The position numbers and the translations under genes were made by a program. Below the pieces are notes generated by a model. That model was not told where the DNA came from. It did not search any database and worked only from the letters and a program-made list of their open reading frames with translations. Below, piece by piece: positions 45,647 to 64,000 of a stretch of DNA of 64,000 nt. The number at the start of each line of letters is the position of its first letter. Position 1 is the stretch's first letter. Source of the DNA: Metallumcola ferriviriculae (GTDB taxonomy: Bacteria; Bacillota; JADQBR01); assembly GCF_035573695.1 (NCBI RefSeq), contig NZ_CP121694.1, positions 3,604,001 through 3,668,000 on the forward strand, given 5' to 3'.

Positions 45647-46627
45647 TTGGTAAATATCTCAGTATTTAAAAGTTCTAACAGTAAGAGTGAACAGCTTAGC
45701 ACAATAGAGGCCTTTAATATTTGGAATATATTGCGCTCAAGGTATATAAGTATTGAAACCTACCAATTCTTAAGGAATTTCATCCATGACCGTGATTTTA
45801 TACTTATAGCCAATAATCATTTAGACGATTTTCAAAGCCAGGTAGCCACCCTGGAGGCGCTAGGTAAGCATTTTAAACTGCAGGTACCGACAAGGCCCCC
45901 GGCACAAATTAAGATTTCTACCCAGCTAGAAGCAATAACTGACAAATTTGTTCATAGAAAATTCTTCAGCGATTTGATATCTGAATTAAAGATATTGTCT
46001 GATGCCCTTACTACCTCAACAACAAACGATAGGCTGCGTAAACATTTATCCTCCTTTGTGTTAGATCATTTGAAAAACTACGAAGAACTATACAAATTCG
46101 GTAAATTAAAGGGGTGGACCGATATAGAACCTGCTTTTACATCTGGTAAACCTACGAAAAAGGAACCAATCGCCGTCAGTGAAGCATATCATCTCTGGGA
46201 GCACTTAAACTATCGTTATGACCAGCTGGAACTAACTAATCTATATCTTAACTTTGTGCATGATGCAGATTTTAGAGCAATATTACAAGGGGGCTTATCC
46301 TCTTTAAATAGTCAAATTAAAATCCTTGAAAAAGAATCAACCAAATTTGAAGTACCTTTACCAGAGAGGCCCCCGGCTTCAATGTCAGTTACTATTGACC
46401 CTGAAATAATGACCGATAAATCTGCGTATAGAACCATCTTCACAGGAATGCAGTCAGCTACTAGCTTACATACTAGAGCAGTTATAGACACTATCAGAAA
46501 TGACCCTTTACGAACGGTATTTTTTGATTTTCTAAAAGAAGAGCTTAATTTTTATGATAAACTTGTAAAGTATGGAAAAGTGAAAGGCTGGCTTCATATC
46601 GTTCCGACTTTTAGAAATATGGCTTGA
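45647..46627 (+). CDS. DUF3231 family protein, subtype A (two tandem domains)
   Basis: 326 residues, TTG start with GGGAGGG seven bases ahead. Two homologous helical domains (about 18-165 and 175-322). Each has an E-A-x-x-(I/L)-W start, an (I/V)HDxDF motif, an acidic/aromatic helix, an (S/T)xTxDxLR motif (here TSTTNDRLR and TIRNDPLR) and an end block KFGKLKGW/KYGKVKGW. DUF3231 proteins are found mainly in endospore formers and have no known biochemical role. The conserved Glu, His and Asp within helices suggest a ferritin-like or metal-binding bundle (inference). A ferritin-like gene follows. Confidence 0.85.
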   Translation: MVNISVFKSSNSKSEQLSTIEAFNIWNILRSRYISIETYQFLRNFIHDRDFILIANNHLDDFQSQVATLEALGKHFKLQVPTRPPAQIKISTQLEAITDKFVHRKFFSDLISELKILSDALTTSTTNDRLRKHLSSFVLDHLKNYEELYKFGKLKGWTDIEPAFTSGKPTKKEPIAVSEAYHLWEHLNYRYDQLELTNLYLNFVHDADFRAILQGGLSSLNSQIKILEKESTKFEVPLPERPPASMSVTIDPEIMTDKSAYRTIFTGMQSATSLHTRAVIDTIRNDPLRTVFFDFLKEELNFYDKLVKYGKVKGWLHIVPTFRNMA

Positions 46628-46700
46628 TTGTTTGATTAAGGAGATAAATGGGATATACTGTTGCTTGTTGGGAATTAAAATACATCAATTGGAGGCCCTA

Positions 46701-47156
46701 ATGCTTTCACGGGAAGAAGTAATTACCAAACTTAATTGGTTTTACAGTTTAGAACTAAACCAAGTAGGTCTTTATAATGCTCAAAGTAAAACAATCGATG
46801 ATATATACATTAAAAGAACCCTTGAAAGAGTCGCTAGCATTGAACAGCAACATGTCGATAATGTTGCAGACAAAATTAAAGAATTAGGCGGCAGGCCCAC
46901 TTCAATCGGTGCAGTGATTGCTCCTTTTACTGGGAAAACTGCTGGCAACATAACTGGTTGGTCAGGTGTCATCAATCTTCTCAAGGCTAATATCAAGTTA
47001 GAGCAAAAGGCCATGGCTGATTATAAAGACTTTATTCTTAAGGCTGCATCTGATCAAAGTTTGTTTGACCTATTATGGTCAAACTTGATTGATGAGGATT
47101 TGCATTCAGCTTGGTTTACTAATAAGGTTGCCGAATTAGAAAATATAAAGACTTAG
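46701..47156 (+). CDS. Ferritin-like (di-iron four-helix) protein
   Basis: 151 residues from the ATG at 46701, with TTGGAGG ahead; a longer frame from 46632 has no site. The helices carry the ferritin-like pattern: E18 (SLELNQ), E48-x-x-H51 (IEQQH), a Glu in KLEQKAMADY and ExxH in DEDLHSAW. This would bind two irons. The closest groups are DUF2383/COQ7-like or rubrerythrin-like proteins. It follows the DUF3231 gene by 73 bases in the same orientation. Confidence 0.8.
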   Translation: MLSREEVITKLNWFYSLELNQVGLYNAQSKTIDDIYIKRTLERVASIEQQHVDNVADKIKELGGRPTSIGAVIAPFTGKTAGNITGWSGVINLLKANIKLEQKAMADYKDFILKAASDQSLFDLLWSNLIDEDLHSAWFTNKVAELENIKT

Positions 47157-47412
47157 CCCATCTACCTAAGTTAGCACCTTTAGAAGCCCCCGTAATGTCC
47201 CAAGGAAAGAGAGACTAATGATCAATAGTAGAAGGTATGTCCTCACATTAGAGAAATACATATAAGGGGAATATCCCAATCTATTATGCTCTAGAAAGTA
47301 ATTTTTCGCTAAACTAATACTCATATTATAATTCCATTATATAATATTGCGATGCCATGTTTAACAAGGCGTTGTGCCTAGCTTCAATAACTGAACTAAG
47401 AATGGGGGAATA

Positions 47413-48636
47413 ATGGTGAAAAAATTGGTCAGCTTACTATTGGTTTTATTAGTTTTTACAGGAACTGCCTCGGCCGCTGATTTAAGCCCAGATGTTCGTT
47501 CAGCAATATTAGTGGATGCTGCTAGTGGAAAAATTCTTTACCAGGAAAATATAGATACTCCGATGCCCCCCGCTAGTATGACAAAGATGATGACAGAATA
47601 CTTAGTGTTAGAGGCAATTAAAGATAAAACTATAACCTGGGATGATATTGTGACAACTTCTGATTATGGTTTCTTCTTAGGGAGATACGGTGGTTCCCGG
47701 GTATTTTTGAATGAAAAGGAAAGAAGAACGGTCAGGGAGCTTTATGAGGCTATGGCCATCTATTCCGCCAATGATGCCACTGCAATGCTCGCCGAGCATA
47801 TCGCTAGCACAGAAACCGCATTCGTAGAACTAATGAATGAAAAAGGTCAAGAACTGGGAATGAAAGATTCTAACTTTATTACCAGTACCGGTCTTCCACG
47901 AAACATTCTTTCTGATTATGCCCCACCGATTTCCTTAGGTGAGCAGGTGATGTCAGCAAGGGATGCAGCTATCCTGGCCCGCGAGTTAATAAATACTTTT
48001 CCGGAAGCCTTAAAGATTGCCTCAACTCCTAAGGCTGTTTTTAGACAAGGGGAAGATGATCAGGTGGAAATGATTAATTGGAACTGGATGCTGCCCGGCC
48101 TTTGGTATGAATTAGAAGGCGTGGATGGCTTAAAAACAGGATATACGGAAGCTGCCGGCAACTGCTTCACCGGCACCGCTAAAAGGGGAAATATACGCCT
48201 TATTAGTGTTGTTATGGGTGCAAAGTCGAAAGAACATCGTTTTAAGGCAACTAAGGAGCTTTTAGAATACGGTTTTGAAGCCTTCACTGTAGAAAAAATA
48301 GCAAAGAAAGGTGACACTATTAAAGGGTACGAGAAAACAAAGGTACTAAAAGGGAAAAAGCTAGAGGTACCGGTGGAAGTTGCAGAAGATATTTCCTTAA
48401 TGGTAAAGCGGGACAGCAAAATTGAAAAAGTAGTATCTCTAACAACAGTAGAAGCACCCGTCAAAAAGGGGCAGGTCATTGGTTCCGTAGCCTTTGATTC
48501 TGAAAGCGATTATCTTAGGGAAAAGGATAAACAAGATACAGAAATAAATATGGTGGCAGTTGAAGAGATAGAAAAGGCTTCGTTAATAATAAGACTTTTT
48601 CGAGGCATTAAAAACTTCTTTTTAGGGCTATTTTAG
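47413..48636 (+). CDS. D-alanyl-D-alanine carboxypeptidase (DacF/PBP5 family)
   Basis: A 407-residue protein. Signal peptide (VSLLLVLLVFTGTASA). Penicillin-binding motifs: SMTK (SxxK, catalytic Ser), SAN (SxN) and KTGYT (KTG). A C-terminal beta-domain and an amphipathic final helix (LIIRLFRGIKNFFLGLF) typical of PBP5 membrane anchoring. It trims the terminal D-Ala of peptidoglycan stem peptides; DacF and DacB act in spore cortex formation in Bacillus, but subclass is not resolved here. GGGGGAA precedes the ATG. Confidence 0.93.
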   Translation: MVKKLVSLLLVLLVFTGTASAADLSPDVRSAILVDAASGKILYQENIDTPMPPASMTKMMTEYLVLEAIKDKTITWDDIVTTSDYGFFLGRYGGSRVFLNEKERRTVRELYEAMAIYSANDATAMLAEHIASTETAFVELMNEKGQELGMKDSNFITSTGLPRNILSDYAPPISLGEQVMSARDAAILARELINTFPEALKIASTPKAVFRQGEDDQVEMINWNWMLPGLWYELEGVDGLKTGYTEAAGNCFTGTAKRGNIRLISVVMGAKSKEHRFKATKELLEYGFEAFTVEKIAKKGDTIKGYEKTKVLKGKKLEVPVEVAEDISLMVKRDSKIEKVVSLTTVEAPVKKGQVIGSVAFDSESDYLREKDKQDTEINMVAVEEIEKASLIIRLFRGIKNFFLGLF

Positions 48637-48816
48637 TGTTCATCACGTCGTGATTCCATAAGATGATCGATAGCACTGCCTCAAAATCTCCCAGCATACT
48701 TTAGCTAATCAAGATATCCACCATGCAGCCATATGATTTCTGCTTTAGAGTTACCGTCACTCTACTGTTTATTTGCTATTAGAATTATAGCTGGAACTAA
48801 AAAATATCGTTTCCCC

Positions 48817-50805
48817 TCAGTTAGCTTTTTTGTGTTCCTTTTCAAAGAACACTGCCAAACAGGCATCTACGATTTCAGAATCGTAAAGAATACCTTTATT
48901 TCTCAAGATATCTTTCTTTGCCATTTCCTTATTTAAGGCAGGTCTATATGGCCTGTGTGAACACATGGCCTCAACTACATCTGCTACTGCAACTATTTTT
49001 GCTTCTAAAAGTATCTCCTCGCCCTTCAATCCTTCAGGGTAACCAGACCCATCAATTCTTTCATGATGCTGTAAAACAATTTGGGCTACAGGCCACGGAA
49101 AATCTGCCCTTTTAAGGGTTTCATGACCCATTGTTGCGTGGTCCTTTATTAGGTTGAATTCGTTTTGTGTGAGCTTGCTGGGTTTACTTAAAATACTCGC
49201 TGGAACATGAAGTTTTCCTATATCATGAAGTAAAGCGGCAACCTTAATTCCCTCAAGACTATCTTCAGATACTTCCAAATGCCTTGCAATGTTGCAAGCG
49301 ATGTCCGCTACACGATGTTGGTGGTCTGCTGTATACGAATCAACCATTCCAATTGTAGAGGATAATAAATTAACAGTGTCCTCCAAAAGTTTCTGAAGCT
49401 TCGTGTTGCTATCCTTCAATTCTTGTCTGGACAAATCCCGTTCTAAAGCATTTCCGATAATTTCTGAAAAGAGCCGCACTACCGTAAAATCTTCTTCTGA
49501 CCATTTGTTTATTTCATCTACTTCGTGTAGTGCGATAAAGCCAATTATCTCTCTCTTAACAGCTAGTGGTAAAGCAATAAGTGACTTTACATCCTGCCTT
49601 CCTAATGTAGTTTTTTCCCTGCTAGCTTCAACAGGCAGTTTGGATACATCGTCAATAAGGATATTCTGATTGTTTTTTATCTTTGCTACCCACCACGGAA
49701 CATCGTCACAGGATAAATTTTTATGATTTTCTATCTGAGGGGTTACCCCTTGGGCACACCATTCATGGGTATTGTCCATAACAGTACCATTGTTCTTAAA
49801 AAGGAAAATGCATGTACGGCTTGCCTGACAAATGTTACCCAAATCATTTAAAGCATCAGCGATAGCACTTTCAATGTCTAATGTTTTAATAAACCTTGAC
49901 GAAATTTTAAGTAGGGCTTTTTCAAATTCATATCGCTTTCTTAATAAAAGTTCCGTTTTAGTTCTTTCCATTATTTCATTCTCAAGTGTATCGTTTAGTT
50001 GTTTAAGCGCTTTGGTCCTTTCAGCTACCTTCTGTTCTAGGGTTTCATGGGATTGACGCAGTTCATTTTCCACCTGCTTTATTTCAGTGATGTCCCTTCC
50101 CTCGGCCTGATATTCCATAGCTCTTCCCTTATCGTCAAATATCAATTTACAAACCCATTGAATGCGTAGGTTATTTATGCTTGTTTCCAAAAACCCAACG
50201 GGTGTCTGGAAATTCAGTTTAGATATTAAGTTAATTAAAGATTCTGTCCTATCGGCAGGGACAATATCTAACATACTTTTACCTATCATATCATCGGGGT
50301 TTTTACCATAAATATTCGCATATATTTTGTTCACAAAAGTATACTTCATTTCAGGGGAGATCCGAAATATTAAGTCATTTTGACTCTCAATAATATTCTT
50401 AAGCTGCTTATGAACTATATACAATTCACCCTTTAAATTGGTATTTTCGGTCACATCCTCGGCTTTGCATAAGATATATTCAACCATACCTTTATCATTT
50501 TTAAAAGGCTCTTTAGTTATTGATAATAACCGCTTTTCACCATCTTTGTTCTTTACCCATTCTTTACTCTTAACCCGTTTCTCTTTCTCAAATACCGTCT
50601 TATTACTCAATGAGCATTGCTTTCGCTCTTCTTCACTAAGCACTTTGCATATTTTAAAGTTGTGACATTGGTCTTGTGTGAGCCCCATAAATTCGGCATG
50701 CGCCTTATTGGCCCAATAGTAAGTATCCATGTCCTGAACCCATGCCTGGTAATCCATTATATTTAACAAACTTACCAATTTATCATCCAACGAAATAAAC
50801 CCCAT
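48817..50805 (-). CDS. PAS-GAF-HD-GYP signalling protein (c-di-GMP phosphodiesterase type)
   Basis: A 662-residue protein without TM segments. Two PAS-like domains (about 1-120 and 130-245), a coiled coil (250-295), a GAF domain (about 300-460, with ALPLAVKREIIGFIALHE) and a C-terminal HD-GYP domain with HDIGKLHVPASIL, DHATMGHETL, HHERIDGSGYPEGL and ADVVEAMCSHRPYRPAL. The HD and GYP residues are intact, so it should hydrolyse c-di-GMP to pGpG or GMP. GGGGGG precedes the ATG. It stands alone and may oppose the two GGDEF proteins of the window. Confidence 0.92.
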   Translation of the reverse strand: MGFISLDDKLVSLLNIMDYQAWVQDMDTYYWANKAHAEFMGLTQDQCHNFKICKVLSEEERKQCSLSNKTVFEKEKRVKSKEWVKNKDGEKRLLSITKEPFKNDKGMVEYILCKAEDVTENTNLKGELYIVHKQLKNIIESQNDLIFRISPEMKYTFVNKIYANIYGKNPDDMIGKSMLDIVPADRTESLINLISKLNFQTPVGFLETSINNLRIQWVCKLIFDDKGRAMEYQAEGRDITEIKQVENELRQSHETLEQKVAERTKALKQLNDTLENEIMERTKTELLLRKRYEFEKALLKISSRFIKTLDIESAIADALNDLGNICQASRTCIFLFKNNGTVMDNTHEWCAQGVTPQIENHKNLSCDDVPWWVAKIKNNQNILIDDVSKLPVEASREKTTLGRQDVKSLIALPLAVKREIIGFIALHEVDEINKWSEEDFTVVRLFSEIIGNALERDLSRQELKDSNTKLQKLLEDTVNLLSSTIGMVDSYTADHQHRVADIACNIARHLEVSEDSLEGIKVAALLHDIGKLHVPASILSKPSKLTQNEFNLIKDHATMGHETLKRADFPWPVAQIVLQHHERIDGSGYPEGLKGEEILLEAKIVAVADVVEAMCSHRPYRPALNKEMAKKDILRNKGILYDSEIVDACLAVFFEKEHKKAN

Positions 50806-50857
50806 ATTCCGACCCCCCTAGCCTGTTCAGTCAGACCCCCAGTATCTCTATTTATGG

Positions 50858-51004
50858 CTATCGTTTTAGTGTCAGAAACAGTTTTCTTGCTATATATTTA
50901 AACCACCCTTGTCTATCACTATCATAAGAAAAACTGTTATTTGAAAGGAGTATGTAAAAAGATTTTCTTTCTTCATGGGTCATTTCCAATAAATCTTTAC
51001 CCAA
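50858..51004 (-). CDS. Small hypothetical protein, 48 residues
   Basis: A frame of 63 codons is open from ATG 51049, but GGAG lies before a TTG at 51004 that would start LGKDLLEMTHEERKSF. The product is acidic then basic, ending FKYIARKLFLTLKR, with an amphipathic tail. Nothing matches. I call it because of the ribosome-site-like sequence and its fit between genes; it could be spurious. Confidence 0.35.
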   Translation of the reverse strand: MGKDLLEMTHEERKSFYILLSNNSFSYDSDRQGWFKYIARKLFLTLKR

Positions 51005-51049
51005 AATCCACACTCTCCTTTCGAACTTGATTAACTTCGTATGCCGCAT

Positions 51050-51810
51050 TATCCACGGCTTAGTACTAGATTAATTTCCACCTAAACATTTGTTAAACCT
51101 TCTTTAGAGACCTTATTAATATTTGTATGCTGCTTCTTTGTTCCACCGTTCTAAAAATGCGTTGTCAATTTTTTAAACGCCGCAAGTAGATAGGTCAATT
51201 ACCATATCACAATCCTAATAACTATCGAATGCAGAGTTGTCCATATTTTAGCAGCTCACCTTGTATTCAATGTTGTGTATTCACTGTTTGTTCCCTCAGC
51301 CCTTGTGATATTTGTCACATTTTTTTACTCCCTTGTCACAATTTGTATAAGTATGTCATTAAATGCACTGAATTGTTCCATAGAAGAATTTTCTGGAATT
51401 TACCATTAAGTTCTTAACATCGCTTATTAAAGTCATAACAATTATTTCTGGGCGATTAAATATTCGCTGGTAAAGCGGTGGGCTTGCATTATTCGTAGGA
51501 ATTGATGCGGGTTGCTTTAGGTGGACACGGGGTGGTTATTCTAGAATAATGGCAGGCGCAGTGTTGATGTGGCAGGAATATAGAGGAAATTAATCGAACT
51601 ATAACAAACAAATGTATTATAATTGAATCAAACTAGCCTACCTCATACTAGCTAAGTTCCTAATTTAAATTATTAAACTCAACCAAGTAGATTCTTTCTA
51701 AACTACACCAGCTATGATTTAATAGCCTATCCGGAACAGACCGTCCCGATACCAGGGGCTAATTATCTAAATATTATGTCAACTGCAAGTAATTAAAAGG
51801 AGTATCTCTT
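51050..51810. other. Long AT-rich gene-free stretch
   Basis: About 760 bases with no supported gene on either strand. The part 51450-51600 has a higher GC content than its surroundings and no recognisable motif; it may be a gene remnant. Confidence 0.5.
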
Positions 51811-53028
51811 ATGAAAATTAGCCGCTGGACTGCGCTCGCTTGGATTGCTATATCTGAATTATTTGCTTTAAGTTTATGGTTTAGCGCCTCCGCAATATTA
51901 CCTGAACTAACTAAAGTTTGGAATCTTAACTCCTCTATGCAAGCTTGGGTGACAGCTTCCGTTCAAATCGGGTTTATTACCGGCGCATTATCTAGCTCTC
52001 TTTTCGGTATTGCAGATCGATTTAATGCTCGAAAAATATTTGCTGTTTCGGCACTTACAGGGGCGGTCGTAAATGGATTATTGGTTTGGGTGGATAGTGC
52101 TTGGCTTGGCATAACACTACGTTTTATAACGGGAATAAGCATGGCGGGTGTTTACCCTATCGCTGTAAAGCTGCTATCCCAATGGTTTCCCACAAAGCGC
52201 GGAGTAGCTATTGGCATTTTAGTTGCTGCGCTTACTTTAGGGTCCTCTTTACCCCATTTCATTGTGTTGTTTTTATCTTCGGTTCATTGGCAGCTAGTCA
52301 TCGCCACCAGTTCTATTTTGGCACTAATTTCTACTGTGATTATCACTTGGGTTCTACCAGATACTCCCGTCGCTTCAAAAAAGAATCCTGTTTCTTTTAA
52401 ATTATTAAAAAAGGTTGTTACAAATAAACCCGTCATGCTTGCTAATTACGGCTATTTCGGACATCAGTGGGAATTATACGCGATGTGGACATGGCTCCCG
52501 GCTTTTTTAGCCGCCAGCTTAATAACATATTCCCCACAAATAAACCCGCTATGGAGCAAGTTATTTTCATTTTTGTCCATCGGAGTTGCGGGAGCTTTTG
52601 GATGTATAATCGGTGGATACTGCGCGGAAAAAATAGGTAAGTCTAATCTTACTATCATTGCCATGTCCATAAGTGCACTTTGTTCGATTATAATCGGTTT
52701 TACATTTGGCAGCTCTATTTGGCTGACCCTGATAGTGTCCCTGATTTGGGGTATGACAGTCGTTGCGGACTCAGCGCAGTTTTCAGCAGCGGTCACGGAT
52801 TTCTCAAATGCTGACTATGTGGGGACAGCCCTAACCTTTCAAATGTCCATTGGGTTCCTCATAACCGTCTTCTCTATCAACCTGGTTCCGGTTATTCAAG
52901 CACAGATTGGATGGGAATGGGTATTTGCCATATTAAGTATTGGGCCAATCCTTGGTATAATTTCCATGAGCCATTTAAAATACTACGAAACATCAGGGAA
53001 AAAAGAACCTTATACTCTTTGGTTTTAA
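51811..53028 (+). CDS. MFS transporter
   Basis: A 405-residue, 12-TM major facilitator. Motif A in loop 2-3 reads GIADRFNARKIF, and the D-R-F pattern is close to the family's G-x-x-x-D-R-x-G-R-R. WFSASAILPEL in TM1 resembles nitrate/nitrite or NarK-like and CynX-type carriers, but substrate cannot be set. AAAGGAG precedes the ATG. It stands alone. Confidence 0.88.
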   Translation: MKISRWTALAWIAISELFALSLWFSASAILPELTKVWNLNSSMQAWVTASVQIGFITGALSSSLFGIADRFNARKIFAVSALTGAVVNGLLVWVDSAWLGITLRFITGISMAGVYPIAVKLLSQWFPTKRGVAIGILVAALTLGSSLPHFIVLFLSSVHWQLVIATSSILALISTVIITWVLPDTPVASKKNPVSFKLLKKVVTNKPVMLANYGYFGHQWELYAMWTWLPAFLAASLITYSPQINPLWSKLFSFLSIGVAGAFGCIIGGYCAEKIGKSNLTIIAMSISALCSIIIGFTFGSSIWLTLIVSLIWGMTVVADSAQFSAAVTDFSNADYVGTALTFQMSIGFLITVFSINLVPVIQAQIGWEWVFAILSIGPILGIISMSHLKYYETSGKKEPYTLWF

Positions 53029-53133
53029 ATTACGCCTCTGAAAAGGTAAATTGTGCTAAATATAAAGGATTTTGTCAAAATCTGGAGAACTAAAAGTTTG
53101 ATTGTATTTTTACCAAGATAGGAGAGAGCATAT

Positions 53134-53805
53134 ATGAATTTGCTTTTCACCGAAAAAACATCTCTTAAAATGGGCCTCTTAGGTTTTGTTTTTAGCGTCA
53201 TCGGTTATCTCCTTGAAGAATACATAGCTTTACCACGTTTATGGGTTTGGATATTATCAGCAGTAGTTTTAACCTTTGCAGGTTGTCTTTTTGGTAGGTT
53301 AATTGAACATCTACATCGCGGGGCTTACACTGACTCTTTAAGCGGCTTGCGAAACAGAAGATTTCTTTATAATAAGTTAACAGTAGAAATGGAAAGAGTT
53401 AATAGAAATAAGACTTGTCTTTCGATGTTAATGATTGACATCGACAATTTTAAGGAAATCAATGACAACTATGGCCATTTAAAAGGAGATAAAATCATTA
53501 GAATGCTCGCAAAAGCAATGAAGAGCAATAAACGAGCAACTGATACAGTTGCTCGTTTGGGTGGGGATGAGTTTATTATCGTTCTGCCAGAAACGGACTT
53601 CAATGGGGCAAGGTCTGTCGTCAGTAGATTATTAAAATCCATTGCCCAAATGAAATCGTCTCCCAAATTTTCGGTAAGCATTGGAATTACCTCGACCCTT
53701 GACAAAATTGAAGTTCGTAAGTTTATCAAGCAAGCAGACAGTGATCTCTACAAAGAAAAAGCTAGAAAAAAAGATTTGGGGACCGACTATTCTTCTGCCA
53801 TTTAA
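53134..53805 (+). CDS. Diguanylate cyclase with two N-terminal TMs
   Basis: A 223-residue protein. Two hydrophobic helices (about 10-60) lead directly into a GGDEF domain with DSLSGLRNRRFLYN, IDIDNFKEINDNYGH and RLGGDEFIIVLPE. The active site is intact; there is no sensory domain apart from the membrane part. GGAGAG precedes the ATG. Confidence 0.92.
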   Translation: MNLLFTEKTSLKMGLLGFVFSVIGYLLEEYIALPRLWVWILSAVVLTFAGCLFGRLIEHLHRGAYTDSLSGLRNRRFLYNKLTVEMERVNRNKTCLSMLMIDIDNFKEINDNYGHLKGDKIIRMLAKAMKSNKRATDTVARLGGDEFIIVLPETDFNGARSVVSRLLKSIAQMKSSPKFSVSIGITSTLDKIEVRKFIKQADSDLYKEKARKKDLGTDYSSAI

Positions 53806-53874
53806 CTTATGCTTGCCTGGGACCAGTTCTGCCCCCGGCCATCACCCGTAATAATTAACTTTGCAATTGGCAAC

Positions 53875-53896
53875 GCCTGGAATCCTTATTCCAGGC
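53875..53896 (+). terminator. Hairpin after the short diguanylate cyclase gene
   Basis: GCCTGGAAT and ATTCCAGGC perfect 9-bp arms, 4-base loop. A second, weaker inverted repeat AAGACACC/GGTGTCTT follows at 53931-53962. Confidence 0.5.
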
Positions 53897-54046
53897 ATAC
53901 AAGTAACTTTCAGACCTTACTGCGAATTATAAGACACCCTTCCAGGTCTAGGGAGGTGTCTTAAAGGTAAGTGCTAAATTAAGGCAAACTACTCCCCAGT
54001 AGTGAAATTACCCATATGATATGCGCCGCAACTGCAATGCACATTT

Positions 54047-55063
54047 TTAATTATGCAAGCTTAAATCACTAGTAGTATCCGCTACCAGAAGTTTATGAAA
54101 AATAGTAAAAACAACGGTATTAACCAGAATTATTATGAAGATAAGCAAACGCCAATTAGCCGCAGTCAAATAATAAATAACCGCTAGTAAGGCACATACC
54201 AATTGCAGTAAATAGCAGGCCATGACCGCTTCCATATGGCCAAATCCTTTTTGGTCCATTAAAATGTTGTAAAACTGACTGCGGCCTGGCGCGAAAACCG
54301 GCTTGGAATTAATTATTTGGCGTGTGAATGTTACTAACACATTAAAAATTGGGATACCTACTAATATTAATACACCCATCAAAGATTGAAACATTGAAAA
54401 ATGCTTAAACGTATAAAACCCTGTGACAGCTAAAAAAGCGCCCAGCATTAGACGTCCGGCACTGCCTAAATAAATTTCTGCAGGATAAGACTCGTACTTC
54501 AAGAATGCACCTAAAGTCGATATCATAACCCCGACAATTAGTAGAAGATAACTATTACCGGTAAACATAGCCGGGACTACAGCACCAACACCAAACACCA
54601 CAGTGATACCTGATGCCAGACCATCTAAGCCGTCTATTGAATTAACGGCACTCTGACAAATTACAACAAGTAAACAAAGGTAAACAGCCGGCAAAAAACT
54701 ACCGCCGAAAATTACATATGTAATTCCAGCTGATGCGCCTACGCCAAAATAACCGGCAATTTTGACACCCAGCGACATTTTCCTAAGATCATCAATAAAA
54801 CCTAGCACTACTGCCACAGTAAGAGTAACCATATAAACAAAAAATATTTGAGAAAAAAATTTACTATTGATTATAGCCAAAGCGGTCATTCCTACCGACC
54901 AGCCAAGAAATATCGGTAAGCCCCCTGAGCTAGGCATGGTTTTTCCATGATTTTTCCACTGGTTAGGCATATCCAATATTTGTGTCTTTTTAACCAAAAG
55001 CGCAGTTAATAAGGTTATTATAAAAGGTAGGATGGAAACCACCGCAATTTGTATTCCGTTCAT
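54047..55063 (-). CDS. Undecaprenyl-phosphate sugar-1-phosphate transferase (TagO/WecA/MraY family)
   Basis: A 338-residue protein with about 10 TMs. It has the GT4 family marks: MPSSGGLPIFLGW near residue 45, FIDDLRKMS (the DD Mg2+ motif), NSIDGLDGLASG (catalytic NxxDGxDGL). In Gram-positives TagO starts wall teichoic acid synthesis by moving GlcNAc-1-P to undecaprenyl phosphate. MraY is less likely, as the mur genes are absent nearby. GAGGTGA precedes the ATG. Confidence 0.88.
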   Translation of the reverse strand: MNGIQIAVVSILPFIITLLTALLVKKTQILDMPNQWKNHGKTMPSSGGLPIFLGWSVGMTALAIINSKFFSQIFFVYMVTLTVAVVLGFIDDLRKMSLGVKIAGYFGVGASAGITYVIFGGSFLPAVYLCLLVVICQSAVNSIDGLDGLASGITVVFGVGAVVPAMFTGNSYLLLIVGVMISTLGAFLKYESYPAEIYLGSAGRLMLGAFLAVTGFYTFKHFSMFQSLMGVLILVGIPIFNVLVTFTRQIINSKPVFAPGRSQFYNILMDQKGFGHMEAVMACYLLQLVCALLAVIYYLTAANWRLLIFIIILVNTVVFTIFHKLLVADTTSDLSLHN

Positions 55064-55320: not shown

Positions 55321-55354
55321 TAATCATTTAAACGCGACACTCTGAGAAAAGTAG

Positions 55355-55468
55355 TTATACCGCCGCTTTTATTCGTAAAAACTTTTGATACCGTTCCCCC
55401 CAGTTGAGTATATAAGCAATGATAATACTATAAAGCAAGATTCCAGCAAACCTCGTGAATCTATTCAT
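55355..55468 (-). CDS. Short one-TM membrane peptide, 37 residues
   Basis: ATG at 55468 preceded by GGGGGG with 7-base spacing. The product is MNRFTRFAGILLYSIIIAY... with a hydrophobic middle and a basic C-terminus (ERYQKFLRIKAAV), a good small single-pass membrane peptide. A rho-independent hairpin lies just downstream. It is too short for standard gene finders. No family recognised. Confidence 0.55.
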   Translation of the reverse strand: MNRFTRFAGILLYSIIIAYILNWGERYQKFLRIKAAV

Positions 55469-55570
55469 TTCGAATCCCCCCGTTAACATTACTATTCTTT
55501 AGCGCTGGTGAAGAACCTTCAATTATTTACCAAAGATATGGGTTGTGTTGTTAAGGAGAATGTAACTGGT

Positions 55571-55795
55571 TTACTTATTACCATTGACAATTTCTATAGC
55601 TGCTTTACCTGTCATATGTTCGGTTTTGACTTCAATTAAACATACTCTATCCCAGTCTTTTTTAATTTCTTGCTGCCCTTCTTTAATATAGTCAGGTGAA
55701 TATTTTTCAACTAAACATTCAAGGGCATATCGCCTATCGGAATCAGCTGTAAGAATCCTTGCTCTACCAAAGATGGGAAACACTCCTCTAAACAT
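55571..55795 (-). pseudogene. C-terminal remnant of a PPOX-type (NimA-like) flavin-nucleotide-binding protein
   Basis: The 74-residue frame (PIFGRARILTADSDRRYALECLVEKYSPDYI ... IEVKTEHMTGKA) matches the second half of pyridoxamine 5'-phosphate-oxidase-like proteins, which are normally about 150-160 residues. The FMN-binding first half is missing upstream, where only noncoding-looking sequence occurs. An AGAGGTG lies before the ATG, so a short product could still be made, but the fold would be incomplete. Confidence 0.65.
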
Positions 55796-55854
55796 AATTA
55801 CACCTCTAATTCTTCCGTTATTTTTAGGTTCTTATCTAAAGACCTGAAAGTTTC

Positions 55855-56479
55855 TTAAAACAAGTTGATTATACATTCTCCTAGTACTTGTTCACCTAAT
55901 AATAAAGACAACCGGTCGCCATCTGATACCGGTCCCACCCCTTCCGGAGTCCCAGTAAATATTATGTCACCTTTTCCTAGACCAAAATGCTCTGCCGCAA
56001 AATCTATAATCGTCTGTAAGTTAAAAACCATATCTTGAATATTGCCCAACTGAACCTGTTGCCCGTTTCTTAAAAGAGCAAAATCTACTTTTTCACATCC
56101 TCAATCCCCGGGAACTCTATAAACTTACTTATTACCGCTGAATTAGGAAAGCCTTTGGCCATTGACCATGGGTATCCTTTTCTCTTCAATTCGTCTTGAA
56201 CATCCCTCAAAGTAAAGTCAATTCCTAGAGCCATGCCGCTAAGAAGTTTATCCACCCCTAAGCCTTCGTATATGGCCTATCTATTCGAATGACCAATTCA
56301 ACCTCAAAATGAACAGTTCCACGGCCCCCGGGAAGACTAATCTCCTGTCCATTGGCCTCCACCAATGCATGAGTAGGCTTGTTAAAGAAAAGTGGCGAAG
56401 AAGGGACAGCATTTTTTAGTTCTTTTGCATGGGAAACATAATTTCTGCCGACACAATAAATGTTTCTAATCGAATTCAT
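55855..56479 (-). pseudogene. Fumarylacetoacetate hydrolase family gene with two frameshifts
   Basis: Three frames are needed to read one FAH-family protein: residues from 56479 (IRNIYCVGRNYVSHAKELKNAVP ... FEVELVIRIDRPY), a shift near 56260, then a middle (EGLGVDKLLSGMALGIDFTLRDVQDELKRKGYPW ... FPGIEDVKK), a second shift near 56090, then the end (IQDMVFNLQTIIDF ... GDIIFTGTPEGVGPV). The metal ligand region (HFEVEL) and the TPEGVGP end motif survive. Start ATG has GAGAGGA ahead. Either the gene is dead or the sequence carries two errors. Confidence 0.8.
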
Positions 56480-56667
56480 AACAGTCGTCCTCTCATCTTT
56501 GGTAGCATTAAACGCAAGCAAAAATATATACACTCTACATCGTCAGCCTCGACCAGTTAAACAATATAATTCAGCCAAATTCTAAAACTAGGTTACTTCT
56601 GTTTCGTCATAAGTTTAGGAAACAATTTTGTTACATATATCAAAGGAACTGTATAAACTTTTAATAG

Positions 56668-57577
56668 TTATTTGCTTTTCGTAAGCAAATTTTCTAAAGC
56701 TAATTCAAGTGTAGGAAATAAAAATCCAAATCTTTCCTCCATTAATACTTTAGGCATAACCTGTTGACCTTCGAGAATAAGTTTACTTTTTTTGCCCAAG
56801 TGCCAATTTCATAATAAAGGAAGGCACAGGAAGCCAATGCGGTCGTTTTAATACGGACCCAATTATTTTGCCGAAACTTTTCATTCTTAAAGGTGCTGGT
56901 GAGGTTACATTAACAGGTCCATACAAATTATCATTTTCAATAGCAAATACGATAGCTCGTACGGCATCTAGGAAATGAACCCAAGAAACCCACTGTTCAC
57001 CTGCACCAACCGTACCACCAGCAAACAATTTATATGGCAAAGCCATAAGGGGGAGGGCACCACCTTCGTTACCAAGCACAACACCAAATCTCATAAAGAC
57101 AGTGCGCACCCCATATTCATTAGCTTTTTTAGCTTTGCTTTCCCAATCATTCACAGTTCTACCTAGAAAATCGTCTGCTGTCTCTTTTGAATCTTCCGTA
57201 TAAACCGCATCAAGCGATACTGGATAAATACCAATGGCACTGGCATTAATCAATACAGCAGGTTTTCGAGGTGATGCTGCAATTATTCTTAGTAACTCCT
57301 CTGTTGCTATCATCCGACTGTCATATATTTGTTTTTGGTGCTTCATAGTCCATCTACCCTGGTTTATTGAAACACCTGCCAAATTAACAAGCACATCAAC
57401 ATTTCCTAGTTCTTTTTCAGGATTATTACCTTCCTTGAGCCAATTAACATATAATACATCCTTCGATGAAATTTTGTCATTTCTAGTTAAGATGATAATT
57501 TCATGACCTTCCTCGATAAGTAAGTCAGCTAATTTTCTCCCGATAAACCCAGAACCACCAGCAATAACGATTTTCAT
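56668..57577 (-). pseudogene. TIGR01777-type NAD(P)-dependent epimerase, frameshifted in a poly-A run
   Basis: The 264-residue frame has the Rossmann start VIAGGSGFIGRKLADLL, the VLVNLAGVSINQGRW motif and WVSWVHFLDAVRAI. It ends early after LALGQKK. If one A is dropped from the seven-A run near 56792, the frame continues SKLILEGQQVMPKVLMEERF and ends ELALENLLTKSK at 56668, the normal C-terminus for this family at the normal distance. So a single-base insertion truncates about 35 residues. The family includes SulA-like/YfcH proteins of unknown substrate. Start: ATG 57577. Confidence 0.82.
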
Positions 57578-58160
57578 ATCTTCACCTCATCGGACAAATT
57601 ATTGTCAGGACAGTCTTTCAGTAGGTAACTGCGGTACAAGAATCTTCCGTCCACATCAAAAATTCCAACGAAAGCTATTAACTGAATATCTTCTATTATC
57701 AAACTGGCTAAGGCTGAAAATCGTAAATCCTAAGCCCTTGTCGGTGGACTTGACGGCGGCTAAATCATATTCGTTCCATCTGGACTACAACAAACGAAAT
57801 TTCCTGTCACAAGCGCAAAACTAATATTCTCCTAACAGGAAACGGTTCCTTAAGTGTCCAAGTACAACCCCGCTTAGCACTAGGGGTAAGTCGCTGTAAT
57901 ATCGAGGAAATGTCGGAGAATATATATACATGCCAGGTATGGTAGGTAAAATCAGAGATGGATAGCAATATACAGTGCTGGCAGTCCAACAGCTAGTAGT
58001 TTTATCCAGTCAATTTTCCATTTGCCTTGTTTTCTAAATGCACTAATAAAACTTGGCTATTCCTCCAAATAAGCTATTTTCACTGGTATATGTGATATTC
58101 CTCCTACTTCAAATTCCGCATCCACTCATCCAGCCATATTAAACTTGACAGGGCCTTTCA
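57578..58160. other. Gene-free stretch, probably decayed coding sequence
   Basis: No intact gene. On the minus strand, 57600-57780 reads as protein-like sequence only through stops (for example RWNEYDLAAVKSTDKGLG), hinting at a remnant. Nothing firm. Confidence 0.35.
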
Positions 58161-58720
58161 TTACCTCTCCCGAACAAGTGCCTTGCCAATTAAAATACCA
58201 AAAAGAATACCTACTAGCGGAAACGCCAACATAGCAGTTCCCCAAAGCTTTAAATCTACGCCAAATATTTTGGTAGCATAAGGGCTAACAAACAATATCC
58301 CTACACCCATCACTAAAACCGTAAGCAACAGTTGTCCCCAAGCAGGATTAAGCCCCTTATTAAACGGTGCTAACTCCAAAAGTAAGCCCGTGAGTACAAG
58401 AACCAACTACTGGAAAAGCACTTGTCATCACTTCATAGTTTAATGTAAATGTAGCTTTTCGGTACGGTATATAGTAGTAGATATACGCACTGCTTCCTAA
58501 TGCCACGATTATTAACCTCACTAGGTTTCCTGCGGCGTTACTGGAATTTGAGGTCCTCTGCCAAAAGCAAAATATTTAATCCTCTCATCCTCAATTATAC
58601 CGCCAATGATAAATTGTTCTTTACCCTTTTCATTGCTACTAAATATTCCTGCAACATTAAACGGCTGGTATTCTTCGACGGGGTAACCGTATGAACTACT
58701 TCCAGCATGCCAAAAACCCC
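58161..58720 (-). pseudogene. Decayed membrane protein gene, at least two frameshifts
   Basis: From about 58720 three segments in different frames join into one protein: SSYGYPVEEYQPFNVAGIF ... GPQIPVTPQET, then (shift near 58530) LVRLIIVALGSSAYIYYYIPYRKATF, then (shift near 58410) VLVLTGLLLELAPFNKG ... LGTAMLAFPLVGILFG. The last part has three hydrophobic helices. The first part has no usable start. I do not recognise the parent family. Confidence 0.6.
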
Positions 58721-58731
58721 CCAGCTTCCTT

Positions 58732-58977
58732 TTTAACCCTGTAACGCCGAAAGTACTTTTTTCTGTTCATATTTTCCATATTGATCCTTTAATAAAACAT
58801 TTCAAAGAAGCAATATCAATTAACCTTGATAATACAGAAAAGTTAATTTTAAAAAAGTTGGTAGAAAGGCTTAGACACTCAAGAAAATTCTTTAGAAAAG
58901 AGATACAAGAATATTCTATGTTGTCTAATAAAATACTGTATTTAAGTATTCTCCGTGATTTGACAAAAGAAGAATAA
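58732..58977 (+). pseudogene. Orphan C-terminal coding fragment
   Basis: A plus-strand frame without start codon reads FSVHIFHIDPLIKHFKEAIS and continues as charged helices (TEKLILKKLVERLRHSRKFFRKEI) to a stop at 58975. The helix-rich end resembles a regulator or coiled-coil tail. No ribosome site or promoter; likely a remnant. Confidence 0.35.
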
Positions 58978-59088
58978 ACAACCTCAGGGAACCAAGCATT
59001 TGACTTCTTTAAAGCTTCTGACTGTTCCGCCCCTCTGTGCTTCGTTCTTTAGCATTTTCCCAGCCCCAAATTTTTTGGGGCCCTAACT

Positions 59089-59267
59089 ATGTAAAACGAA
59101 AAAAAAGTCTTTCCACGCCCATCCCCCGAAACCCCCGCCACTAAAGCATCCCATCTTTTACCAGTAAATAAAGTTTTTCCATGAATGGACTGTATCTGAA
59201 AACCACCACAACTCTTTTCACAATTTTTTCCCACCAAACACCACGAAAATGAAAAAAAAGTCTTTCC
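59089..59267 (-). repeat. Three dispersed copies of a GGAAA-x-ACTTT-(A/T)TTT motif (minus strand)
   Basis: On the minus strand GGAAAGACTTTTTTTT ends at 59114 and at 59267, and GGAAAAACTTTATTT ends at 59180. They are the same word as the tandem units at 59471-59550 but in opposite orientation, about 300 bases away. Confidence 0.6.
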
Positions 59268-59360
59268 AAAACTGTTTTCTCAAATTTCTTCTATACAAAA
59301 CTCCCCAAAAAGCCTGATACTACTGGCTTTAAGCCTTCCCCCTACTACCCATACAGTAAA

Positions 59361-59410
59361 AAATAAGGGTCAAAGTGAGTCTAAAGCTAAATCACTCTGG
59401 GCCCTTATTT
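59361..59410. terminator. Bidirectional hairpin upstream of the recombinase repeats
   Basis: AAATAAGGG (59361-59369) pairs with CCCTTATTT (59402-59410), with an inner AGTGA/TCACT pair. It separates the minus- and plus-oriented motif copies. Confidence 0.65.
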
Positions 59411-59470
59411 GTCAAGGTTTATGGTGTGTTTGGCGCTGCCGTATGAAGTTTTCACTATTACCTTCCCAAT

Positions 59471-59550
59471 GGAAACACTTTATTTGCTTTGGAAAAACTT
59501 TATTTGCTTATGGAAAGGGTTTTTTTTCGGTGGAAAGGGTTTATTTGAAT
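59471..59550 (+). repeat. Four tandem 20/21-bp repeats before the recombinase
   Basis: Units begin with GGAAA at 59471, 59491, 59512 and 59532 (spacing 20, 21, 20). Consensus GGAAAnnnTTTATTTGCTT; the first two differ at one base in the core. The period of two helical turns puts all copies on the same DNA face. The last copy overlaps the ribosome site and start of the recombinase. Confidence 0.8.
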
Positions 59551-60231
59551 TTTACATCTTACATGAAGACTGTTAAGAATTATCAGCCCCGCAGCTTTAA
59601 TGCGAAGCTGGCTGCCTTAATCAAGCTGAATGAATTTCTAGTATCACAGGGCATCCAGACTGATACAGTCGTTTCCCAGAAAGATAAGATTAAACTACAT
59701 GATCAGGTGAGTCCCACTGAAGTCATAAAGAAAGATGTGGATCAATTCAGGCAGGTGCTTCTTGAGAAAGAGGGGCGAAAGTTTTATACAATAGCCACGC
59801 TTCTGGCCTACTGCGGCCTAAGAGTTTCCGAATGCCTCAACATCAAAAAAGCAGATCTCGATTTCAAGACCAGGGAGCTGGTAGTGAGCGGCAAAGGAGA
59901 AAAACGGCGGGTGATTTATATGGGCGATAAAATAACTGCTGCATTAAGAGAATATCGGGCAGCAGTTGAAATTGCCGAAAATGACTATATTTTTAAAGGT
60001 GATAGAAATAGCAAAAGGATGAATAGAAGTTATATCAGCCGTATTTTCTCAAAGCATTCAGATACAATTACCCCACACCAACTGCGACATTTCTTTTGCT
60101 CACATGCTCTAGAAAATGTGTTTCAAATTTCCGAGGTAGCGGCGATTGCTGGCCATAGCAATATTGCAACTACATCAACATACCTGCACTGGACAAAGAA
60201 ACAGGTTCGGGAGAAGATGAATTCTTTATGA
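59545..60231 (+). CDS. Tyrosine recombinase/integrase
   Basis: 228 residues from a TTG at 59545, with GGAAAGGG ahead; the longest frame (ATG 59443) would translate the tandem repeats. N-terminal core-binding domain (about 1-95), then a catalytic domain with the first Arg in CGLRVSECL, a Lys in GKGEKRRV, HQLRHFFCSH (HxxR), the second His in GHSNIATTSTYLHW and the nucleophile Tyr in that stretch. All R-K-H-R-H-Y residues are present, so it should be active. The N-terminus is slightly shorter than usual in XerC/D. No partner excision gene nearby. Confidence 0.88.
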   Translation: MNFTSYMKTVKNYQPRSFNAKLAALIKLNEFLVSQGIQTDTVVSQKDKIKLHDQVSPTEVIKKDVDQFRQVLLEKEGRKFYTIATLLAYCGLRVSECLNIKKADLDFKTRELVVSGKGEKRRVIYMGDKITAALREYRAAVEIAENDYIFKGDRNSKRMNRSYISRIFSKHSDTITPHQLRHFFCSHALENVFQISEVAAIAGHSNIATTSTYLHWTKKQVREKMNSL

Positions 60232-60375
60232 TTTGGGGTCAACTTAGTCTTTTAAAGCTAAATTTTCTTATGCCGTTCCATGTGATAAATGCGACATAGC
60301 AGCGCAAATAAATTCATCCCTATCTTGCTGATTAATAAATTATTAAAATGGAACAATATCTCTAGAGGTGATTTT

Positions 60376-60855
60376 ATGTTCCAACCAGCGCTAGTATCTT
60401 TTTATAAAGCTGTATTATTCGGTATCGCTACTATATTATTAATACCGAAAGAGAAGTATAAAAAGTTCCTTATATATGGCTTTTTGCTTGGAGCAGTCGG
60501 GGATGTCTTAATAGTTACATTAGTTGGGGGACTATTGGGTCTTATTAAATATCAGAATACAGGTCCCTTTAATATTTTAGGATTATTTTCTTTCTGGACA
60601 CCGCTAGCCTGGATGTTTACATTAATGCTATTTTTATATTTCTTACCAGTTAGAATAGTTTTTTATCATGTATACATTGTTGGGTTTGCACTCTTTGGTT
60701 TTATGGTCGGTTTAGTCCTGCAGCACCTTGGAACTTTTCAATATGTGGGGAATTATATTTATTTTGCTCCGATTACTTTTATAACCTGGTTTTTCCTTTC
60801 TGCATGGCTGTATCGTAGGAGCGAAAATATTGCTCTGCTAAACAAAATTAAATAA
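60376..60855 (+). CDS. Polytopic membrane protein, possibly CBO0543-like
   Basis: 159 residues from the ATG at 60376 with AGAGGTG ahead (longer frame to 60289 lacks a site). Five hydrophobic helices, Trp/Phe-rich, basic C-terminus (YRRSENIALLNKIK). The topology is like the CBO0543 group of small Firmicute membrane proteins. Function unknown. It precedes a DUF3231 gene by 46 bases. Confidence 0.65.
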   Translation: MFQPALVSFYKAVLFGIATILLIPKEKYKKFLIYGFLLGAVGDVLIVTLVGGLLGLIKYQNTGPFNILGLFSFWTPLAWMFTLMLFLYFLPVRIVFYHVYIVGFALFGFMVGLVLQHLGTFQYVGNYIYFAPITFITWFFLSAWLYRRSENIALLNKIK

Positions 60856-60901
60856 CTTGTGAACCTATAAAGCTAAAAAACACAAAGAAAGGAGACATAA
60901 C

Positions 60902-61879
60902 ATGGTACTTGGCATAAAGCAAACAAAATCTAAAACACAGGCAATGATTAATGTTGCTGAGGCAAACAACCTCTGGGACCTGACAATAACAAAACACAAG
61001 GGAATTGACAGAGCTTTAATCTGGTTAACATATGCTAAAGACCCAGATTTAAGAGTAATAATCCAGCAAGCTATAAATAAATCTAAAAAGCAAGTAAAAT
61101 CCCTAGAAAACGAACTAAACAAGTTCTCCATTTTAGGCCCTAAACAAAGCAGGGTTAAAATGAATGTCTCCGCTAACTCCGAATTACTCTTAGACCAGGA
61201 TATAGGAGGTTATTTGCTGCTTGCAATACAAGAAGAAATTGAACTTTTATTTAGAGCTTTTCGTACTTCAACTACCAACGATGCAATTAGGGCGTTATTT
61301 GTGAAATTTCTAACAGAAGCGATTTCCGATTTGGATAATACAGTTAAATACCTTAAGCTTAAAGGATGGGTTGAATCTTCACCTTTATATCCTAATATCC
61401 CTAATGAAACCACAGAACAGATTAATGCTGCTGAAACATTTCATTTATGGGATCACTTAACTTTTCGTTACGATAACATCTACCAGACCCAATTTTGGTA
61501 CGAGCTTGCTAAGGACTCTGATTTAAAGTTACTTTTACAAAAAGGACTGCAAGATAACTTAAAAAAACAAGCAAAGAAACTGGAAGACGAACTTGTCAAG
61601 TTTGGTATCCCTATACCCAAACGGCCGCCTGATGCTATCCCTACTCCACCGAGGCAGTCCATTACAGATGACTATATTTTCAGGTCACTTTTTTCGGGCA
61701 TAATAGGGGCAGCCTGGTTGCATGCCCTTGCACTAAAACAATGTACAACCAATGATAGAATAAGGCAGATCTTTAAAGATCTGCTGGTGCAGGAAATCAA
61801 TATATTAAATAAGATGATCTTATACGGTAAAACAAAGGGGTTTTTTGAAGTAGTGCCGCAGTTCTCACCAACCCTTTAA
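60902..61879 (+). CDS. DUF3231 family protein, subtype B (two tandem domains)
   Basis: 325 residues; ATG with AAAGGAGA ahead. Two domains (about 15-160 and 172-320). The first ends KYLKLKGWVESSPLYPNIP, the second YGKTKGFFEVVPQF. It has AEANNLWD, TYAKDPDLRV, TSTTNDAIRALF and AETFHLWDHLTFRYDN with KDSDLK and CTTNDRIRQIF. It resembles the partial gene at the right edge more than its A-type neighbours, so two subtypes exist here. Unknown role, likely spore related. Confidence 0.85.
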   Translation: MVLGIKQTKSKTQAMINVAEANNLWDLTITKHKGIDRALIWLTYAKDPDLRVIIQQAINKSKKQVKSLENELNKFSILGPKQSRVKMNVSANSELLLDQDIGGYLLLAIQEEIELLFRAFRTSTTNDAIRALFVKFLTEAISDLDNTVKYLKLKGWVESSPLYPNIPNETTEQINAAETFHLWDHLTFRYDNIYQTQFWYELAKDSDLKLLLQKGLQDNLKKQAKKLEDELVKFGIPIPKRPPDAIPTPPRQSITDDYIFRSLFSGIIGAAWLHALALKQCTTNDRIRQIFKDLLVQEINILNKMILYGKTKGFFEVVPQFSPTL

Positions 61880-61948
61880 AGGTTTTAATAACAATTACTT
61901 ACCAGGAAAAACTACAGTACTACTGTTTTTAAAGGAGTTGAAAACCAG

Positions 61949-62917
61949 ATGGGCATTTCAATATTCAAAACTTCTAGAGGTGTATAACAAATAAATACTG
62001 CAGAAGCGTTCAGTGTCTGGAATTTGTTGCGGGAAAGATATATTAGTCTTCAAGCAAACCAGGTGATGAGTAATTTTATCCATGACCGTGATTTATTAAT
62101 TTTATTAGATAGTAATCTAAACGACTTTAAGAAGCAAATTAAGGTTATGGAGAATATGGCAAAGAAATTTAAACTTAAAGTGCCGTCCCGACCTCCAAGC
62201 GATTTTAAAATATCGCAAAAGATTAATGAAATATCGGACAAAATGATCTATAAAATTATGTATAATGATTTTTTAGCCCAAATGCAGGGACTAATTCGTG
62301 CCATTCGTACCTCTACAACAAATGATGATTTGAGAAATGTCTTTATGAAATTTTACTTAGGTCATCTTGAAAACTTCGTGGATTGGTTTAAATTTGGAAA
62401 ACTTAAAGGATGGGCTGACATAGCACCTGCTTTTATAACTTTTAAGGCGGTGGAAGCAGAGAAACTTTCCGTTAATGAAGCAGACCATCTCTGGAACCAT
62501 ATTACTCAAAGGTATGACAATCTGCAGCAGACCCAGTTTTACCTGACATTTATACATGACCCAGATTTTAAGGTTATAGTTCAGCAGGGACAAATGGTGT
62601 TACAACAGCAAATCGAAAGGTTAGAAAAAGAAGCTAACCATTTTGAGGTTCCGTTACCCGAAAGACCGCCCGCTATAATGGAGTCCCCCGTTGACCCAGA
62701 AATTGTTGAGGACAGATATATGTATAGAATTGTTTTAAAAGGTATGCAGGCAGCTATTGAACTACACTCTACAGCAGCGGTGGAAACTACTCGTAATGAC
62801 AAGCTAAGAGGTTTATTTGTGGGTTTACTTAAGAAAGAATTAACCTCATTTGACAAGTTTCTTAAATTCGGTAAAGCAAAAGGATGGACTAAAGTTGAGC
62901 CGATGTATAAGTTCTAA
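61949..62917 (+). pseudogene. DUF3231 subtype A gene with an in-frame TAA at codon 13
   Basis: The frame begins at ATG 61949 with AAAGGAG ahead (GISIFKTSRGV then TAA at 61985-61987, then QINTAEAFSVWNLL...). The start region matches the intact subtype A protein at 45647 (NISVFKSSN...). After the stop the frame is open for 310 codons with both domains intact. So either a nonsense mutation kills it or translation restarts at an internal TTG (62024). Other DUF3231 marks: FIHDRDLL, TSTTNDDLRN, KFGKLKGW, EADHLWNHITQRYDN, TTRNDKLRGLF, KFGKAKGW. Confidence 0.8.
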
Positions 62918-62954
62918 CCCCATACCCAATGGTCTAATCTCGTATCTAAAAGTC

Positions 62955-62987
62955 AAACGCAGTAACCGTTACGGTAGCTGCGTTTTT
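62955..62987. terminator. Terminator between the converging DUF3231 genes
   Basis: AAACGCAG (62955-62962) pairs with CTGCGTTT (62978-62985), with inner ACCGT/ACGGT pairing; T-run of five on the plus strand. Confidence 0.8.
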
Positions 62988-63025
62988 CATTGGGTTAATG
63001 TGTTTTACAAATCTATTATAGAAAA

Positions 63026-64000
63026 TTATTGAGATGTCCCGTATTTAGGTGCTTTGTTTATCCACCCCTTGAGCTTGCCAAACTTGACAAAGTCATCAAA
63101 TAAATTCACTTCTTTAAGAAGTAATTGTGAAAATAGTTTTCTTAACCTGTCGTTAGTTACAGACTGTTTCAATGCTAGGGCATGAAAAGTTTGTGCTCCT
63201 TGAATACCCATCAGAACCTCTCTGTACATAAAGTCATCTTCCAGGATTTCCGTGTTTTGAGTTGGTGGTCTAACTTGAGGAGGTTTTACGGGTAGGGGAA
63301 GACCATACCGCCTCACTTCATTTTCCAGCATATTGACTTGGCCATTTAGCTCCTTCATGCCTCTATCAAGAATAACCTTGAATTCAGCATCATGGGCAAA
63401 AGTAAGAAACTTATATGTTTTCCGAACCGTATCATACCTAAAGGTGAGGTGGTCCCATAGGTGATAGGCTTCCGCAGTGTCTATTTCTTCCGTACCCTGC
63501 GGCACACCGTTATACAACGGAGGTGTGGAAATCCACCCTTTCAGCTTTACATATTTTGCAGTCTTATCAATCTTAGGAATATCCTTTTTTAAAAGCATCA
63601 AAAGCGTGTCATAAACCAAGTCGTTAGTTGTACTGGTTCTCATTGCTCTTAAAAGCATTTCAACGAACTCCTGCCATAGTGCAAACATCTGCATCCCAAT
63701 AAACTGATCCGACTGAATTTCGGAATTTGCGCCAGAACGAATATCAATTACATGATTATCTGGACCCTTGATACCAAACTGCTCTAATCTATGTTCCATC
63801 AGTTTAATATCACTTTCAAAGTCTTCTATAGTAATTTTAAGCTGAGCTTTAAGGTCTAAATCATGGGCAAGACTGTCCCACATCTGCAACCGCTGGTGTG
63901 CTAGATATTTAGCTGTTAAAATGCTCCATAGACTGAAAGCTTCAGAAATATCAATTTCGGAACGCTTTGCATTTGTTTTAGGGTTTTTAGATAGTATTTC
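63026..64000 (-). CDS. DUF3231 family protein, subtype B, cut by window end
   Basis: The frame is open to the window edge; the reading before the first internal ATG (SEIDISEAFSLWSILTAKYLAHQRLQMWD) matches the start of the 60902 protein, so only about 10 residues and the start are missing. Two domains; the first ends KYVKLKGWISTPPLYNGVP, the second KFGKLKGWINKAPKYG. It also has TSTTNDLVYD, AEAYHLWDHLTFRYD, FAHDAEFK and VTNDRLRKLF. Faces the 61949 gene across a shared terminator. Confidence 0.85.
   Translation of the reverse strand, partial: EILSKNPKTNAKRSEIDISEAFSLWSILTAKYLAHQRLQMWDSLAHDLDLKAQLKITIEDFESDIKLMEHRLEQFGIKGPDNHVIDIRSGANSEIQSDQFIGMQMFALWQEFVEMLLRAMRTSTTNDLVYDTLLMLLKKDIPKIDKTAKYVKLKGWISTPPLYNGVPQGTEEIDTAEAYHLWDHLTFRYDTVRKTYKFLTFAHDAEFKVILDRGMKELNGQVNMLENEVRRYGLPLPVKPPQVRPPTQNTEILEDDFMYREVLMGIQGAQTFHALALKQSVTNDRLRKLFSQLLLKEVNLFDDFVKFGKLKGWINKAPKYGTSQ

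Follow-up and report, generated by a model that had tools for sequence, protein, structure and literature searches.

Proteins of the DUF3231 family (PF11553) are common in spore formers and one of them has a solved structure, but no function has been assigned to the family. The solved protein, BH2358 (PDB entry 2RBD), carries the title of a putative spore coat protein; a literature search for DUF3231 and BH2358 found no paper on the family. Its chain forms a single four-helix bundle, the architecture that is also found in Dps and bacterioferritin. In ferritins, the di-iron signature is the ExxH motif, present in helices B and/or D. The Coat_F/CotF proteins (PF07875) are sporulation proteins like those of DUF3231 and show weak sequence similarity to them (E about 1e-4).

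The window analysed here is a stretch of 64,000 nucleotides, positions 3,604,001 to 3,668,000 of the single-contig 3.72 Mb genome of Metallumcola ferriviriculae. The original prediction described four DUF3231 genes in it, each a tandem of two domains, and a profile search matched all four products to PF11553 with E values from 9.5e-15 to 5.5e-22 and 55.1 to 78.6 bits, the curated cut-off being 29.6 bits. The window genes thus add members to a known family with a known fold. Subtype A is represented by A1 (45647..46627, plus strand, 326 aa, E 5.5e-22) and A2 (61949..62917, plus strand, E 4.4e-20), subtype B by B1 (60902..61879, plus strand, 325 aa, E 7.5e-22) and B2 (minus strand, 63026..64000 within the window, E 9.5e-15). 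The motif forms said to be common within each subtype were found in the proteins. For two genes the predicted extent had to be corrected. B2 is a subtype B tandem as proposed, but its start codon at 64012 lies 12 nt past the window end (full gene 63026-64012, corresponding to 12027-13013 of locus L015). A2 is indeed a subtype A tandem, but the frame from 61949 reads MGISIFKTSRGV* and is broken after 12 codons, codon 13 being an in-frame TAA (61985-61987); it is open again only from 62024 to 62917, resuming inside helix A. Because the coding sequence on both sides of the TAA resembles subtype A, and the frame is otherwise open after it, A2 appears to be an interrupted gene or a young pseudogene, unless there is a base error at the stop.

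Further copies were detected elsewhere in the genome by a profile search: at 697.5 kb an intact B tandem (L016), single-domain genes at 938.4 kb and 1649.0 kb, and at 357.5 kb a remnant of a B N-domain without its C domain (L160, 4487-4942). DUF3231 copies are therefore gained and lost. A reverse-transcriptase-like frame is located about 1.5 kb from the remnant. Directly before the DUF3231 cluster at 60.4-64.5 kb of the window, a tyrosine recombinase gene (Phage_integrase, E 5.7e-28) is found at 59443-60231, and a mobile origin is possible. Carriage of DUF3231 genes on plasmids was also searched for, and no match was found.

Structure predictions bore out the proposed four-helix bundle in each domain. 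In the AlphaFold2 models of A1 (pLDDT 89.9) and B1 (pLDDT 91.1), eight helices are arranged as two antiparallel, ferritin-like four-helix bundles in which a long crossover links helices B and C. The two models repeat each other, and the first was compared with the PDB. Its best match among solved structures was 2RBD (Foldseek E 5e-6; VIA Z 20.6 over 152 residues, rmsd 1.6), which was also matched by the A/B sequence profile (E 4e-12) and differs from the window proteins in that these consist of two fused bundles. The family had been put forward as one with no known function; this still applies to the function, while the fold is known. Dps and bacterioferritin were the next best structural matches (Z about 16). 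The DUF3231 tandems have the bundle in common with these proteins but are unlike them in lacking ExxH, in their low identity (about 4-14%) and in the tandem fusion. No transmembrane segments were detected in the tandem proteins (Kyte-Doolittle windows). The window proteins have pI values of 7.8-9.1, and Dps-like DNA binding through basic charge is unsupported as a family trait, the median pI being 7.2 for A and 7.9 for B.

The metal or cofactor sites of the original prediction were not supported as sites of the ferritin kind. Among 53 tandem proteins, ExxH was found at the four helix B and D positions 0, 0, 1 and 0 times (1/212) and is missing at all four in 52. The HDxDF and TNDxLR motifs correspond to helix N-caps in the model, helices B, C and D starting at or immediately after D48/D206, D99/D257 and N127/N285, respectively. 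Judged by these sequences, the DUF3231 tandems lack a canonical di-iron site and are probably metal-free. Nevertheless, the main invariant interior polar residues of the 53 tandems, R190, H275 and E299, lie in the C domain, where E228 is also conserved in 90%. H275 and E299 could provide an unusual site for a metal or cofactor, and together with the ferritin-like fold and the presence of oxidative-stress proteins in sigma-G regulons (PMC3789822) this would fit proteins that function in storage or redox reactions through a non-canonical C-domain metal site made up of E228, H275 and E299 with H182/H186. Such a function is judged improbable, as ExxH pairs are missing, the N domains have no residues equivalent to this set, H275 and E299 are replaced by Cys and Val in 2RBD, and E299 would be placed nearer to R190 by helix register.

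A total of 84,980 genomes were scanned, which yielded 80 related loci. In a tree of the 53 tandem proteins, subtype A formed a clade of 24 rows (support 100/100, stem 0.69) containing the genes at 45647 and 62024, and subtype B a clade of 24 rows (support 98/95) containing those at 60902 and 63026; besides these, the tree had a third, small clade and one divergent pair. The division into two subtypes was therefore confirmed, and both occur in many other Clostridia-type genomes. The identity between the A and B proteins of the window is about 28-34%. In a tree of single domains, the tandem N domains constituted one clade and the C domains another, and each of them was split into A and B. By this topology, one duplication or fusion produced the tandem before A and B diverged. 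Two tandems are located in contigs labelled Calditrichales and Desulfovibrio (L056 and L074) and are nested among Bacillota sequences, for which mis-binning, mislabelling or transfer are possible readings.

The original prediction noted that A and B lie next to each other, and it proposed a heteromeric A/B structure. For 299 genomes of the phylum, tandem genes were typed as A or B by the higher-scoring profile, two genomes with intermediate tandems (G201, G284) being left out of both counts. A was present in 12 genomes, B in 21, and both in six (G000, G001, G048, G085, G116 and G225, with a partial A gene in G001 and G048). Over all 299 genomes this overlap exceeds the 0.8 expected (p 4e-5), which is in favour of a heteromer as is the arrangement of B1 and A2, but among the genomes bearing DUF3231 it is not beyond chance (p 0.13). 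Moreover, six of the 12 A genomes are without B and 15 of the 21 B genomes without A, in none of the other five genomes that carry both do A and B share a contig, and A2 is interrupted. An obligate A/B complex is consequently highly improbable. The adjacency was seen in this window only and was rejected as a conserved gene pair. A and B are best explained as paralogues that would have been gained and lost independently, rather than as obligate partners.

A link to sporulation was evident from the distribution of the family. SpoIVA was present in all 65 genomes with DUF3231 compared to 256 of the 299 genomes of the phylum overall (p 1e-5), and the family is therefore tied to sporulation. In a control genome outside the phylum, that of Deinobacterium chartae, a weak DUF3231 match below the cut-off was obtained. 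For promoter analysis, upstream regions long enough to hold a promoter were reduced to 37 non-redundant genes and compared to 415 control genes. The consensus for sigma-G established in B. subtilis, GHATR-N17-19-CATWHTA, was detected upstream of nine of the 37 DUF3231 genes and six of the 415 controls (p 2e-7). Promoters of C. difficile recognised by sigma-G have been reported to be very similar to this consensus (PMC3789822). At the same threshold, sigma-E, sigma-K and sigma-A each gave no match in the 37 regions, so that no mother-cell promoter was apparent at the level of sequence motifs; sigma-F scores were also mildly raised.

Since SASP genes are classical sigma-G targets, an independent matrix was trained on the SASP promoters of eight genomes from this clade, which have the form GTATA-N17/18-(A/T)ATACTA and lie about 38 nt upstream of the start. 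With this matrix, 12/37 DUF3231 upstream regions were found compared to 23/415 controls (MWU p 7e-7), and two thirds of the non-redundant DUF3231 genes scored below 7 bits. The putative promoter of A1 (45582..45611, plus strand; AAATA-N18-AATACTA, 42 nt upstream of the start codon) scored above 98.3% of the 415 controls, i.e. in the top 1.7%, and its -10 is identical to that of a SASP gene of the same genome (L134). The gene at 938.4 kb scored above all controls and A2 above 95.7% of them, the moderate match of A2 most likely being internal to an operon. For B1 and B2 no clear sigma-G match of their own was detected, and none before their upstream membrane genes. Upstream of many Clostridium A genes, and of an A gene in the contig labelled Calditrichales, GTATA-N18-CATACTA is present in register.

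Enrichment of sigma-G without that of sigma-E or sigma-K favours the spore interior over the coat as the site of the DUF3231 proteins, as far as promoter motifs can indicate it. Of the originally proposed storage or coat structure in spores, the sporulation link held and the coat part was weakened. Forespore transcription is no proof of an interior location, because in C. difficile some products of sigma-G, CotG and SodA, have been located at the surface of the spore (PMC3789822). Hence, DUF3231 proteins could still be constituents of CotF- or CotJ-like structural layers, possibly at the surface despite synthesis under sigma-G. The title of 2RBD and the Coat_F similarity point in this direction. 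The similarity is below the curated cut-off, with at most 22.9 bits where 25.7 are required for PF07875, and the label of 2RBD appears to be annotation, no paper mentioning DUF3231 having been found. The cotF gene of C. difficile depends on sigma-K (PMC3789822), whereas the DUF3231 upstream regions, with no sigma-K or sigma-E match in 37 at the threshold used, look like sigma-G targets. A coat function is therefore considered possible, though unlikely, and the spore interior is preferred.

Two loci of the genome, at 380.6 and 2451.4 kb, were considered as DUF3231 candidates and assigned to Coat_F instead. Their PF11553 matches are sub-threshold. At both, a TAA separates the Coat_F gene (380,551-380,976, L019; 2,451,353-2,451,753, L020) from a short upstream frame whose product matches DUF3231/CotF over the N-terminal half. 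The CotF-like bundles are apparently encoded here by pairs of small neighbouring genes and may be split four-helix bundles.

Genes in the neighbourhood of DUF3231 were also inspected. As predicted, a ferritin-like gene directly follows A1 (46701..47156, plus strand, 151 aa; PF00210, E 7.4e-9). Its product is a canonical di-iron protein with two ExxH motifs, and the likely start is the ATG at 46701, which has a ribosome binding site, not 46632. As a conserved partner of DUF3231 this gene was rejected, since by tblastn one other clear relative was found near a DUF3231 gene, in L017. The relative is a COQ7-like di-iron protein with 31% identity to the window protein. In L017 (3980-5503), its gene and two membrane-family genes form one run, at a distance of 2.5 kb from a single DUF3231 gene.

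B1 is preceded at a distance of 46 nt by a gene for a multi-span protein (60376..60855, plus strand, 159 aa, four Kyte-Doolittle transmembrane windows), relatives of which, a second membrane family, are located near DUF3231 genes in L055, L077 and L104. B2 is preceded on the same strand (minus) by a 166-aa membrane gene outside the window (64042-64539; L015, 13043-13540). The right end of the window therefore comprises two convergent units, membrane-B1-A2 and membrane-B2. Another family, membrane proteins of 150 aa with weak similarity to DUF6789, occurs near DUF3231 genes in ten loci and immediately adjoins them on the same strand in four, L015 (B2), L051, L077 and L084. It is present in 32 of 37 genomes with a tandem-profile match and 29 of 262 others, an association that may partly come from shared ancestry because the family has many paralogues per genome. 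The single-domain gene at 938.4 kb, with its strong sigma-G type site, is divergent from a complete gerA-type operon (GerA/GerAC/permease; L018, 7917-12563), an arrangement which, taken with the promoter data, favours synthesis in the forespore. The intact B tandem at 697.5 kb is followed after about 0.27 kb by a DUF421/YetF gene (L016, 7487-9481). This family, not homologous to DUF3231 and its neighbour in four loci, is linked to spore heat resistance in 2Duf, a protein of the spore inner membrane. In C. difficile, a DUF421 gene belongs to the sigma-G regulon (PMC3789822).

From these analyses, DUF3231 proteins would be sporulation proteins forming a branch of the ferritin-like superfamily, in which one internal duplication created a protein with two bundles, from which subtypes A and B later diverged. 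Being soluble and without the di-iron ExxH, they are most likely structural or partner proteins, that is, pseudo-ferritins and not iron-oxidising ferritins. The promoter motifs make transcription by sigma-G in the forespore most likely, and the proteins most likely end up inside the spore, in the core or at the face of the inner membrane, possibly in partnership with small multi-span membrane proteins. Taken as a whole, the reading as soluble, probably metal-free forespore pseudo-ferritins with a structural or partner role is somewhat favoured; its forespore part by itself is held with greater confidence, the structural role with less.

For a family common in spore formers, these results provide a history of the subtypes, evidence against ferritin-type metal chemistry and against an obligate A/B complex, and sequence evidence for a forespore programme, by which the likely site of expression is moved from the mother cell to the forespore. 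They also name a co-occurring membrane family and open the function to testing in species of Clostridium and Desulfosporosinus that can be cultured. Annotation of DUF3231 proteins as iron storage or coat proteins without data should be treated with caution. It is a speculative and rather unlikely proposal that a widespread class of forespore-made, metal-free tandem pseudo-ferritins acts at the inner membrane of the spore together with small multi-span membrane proteins. If true, a component that has until now been wrongly labelled as coat protein would contribute to spore resistance or germination.
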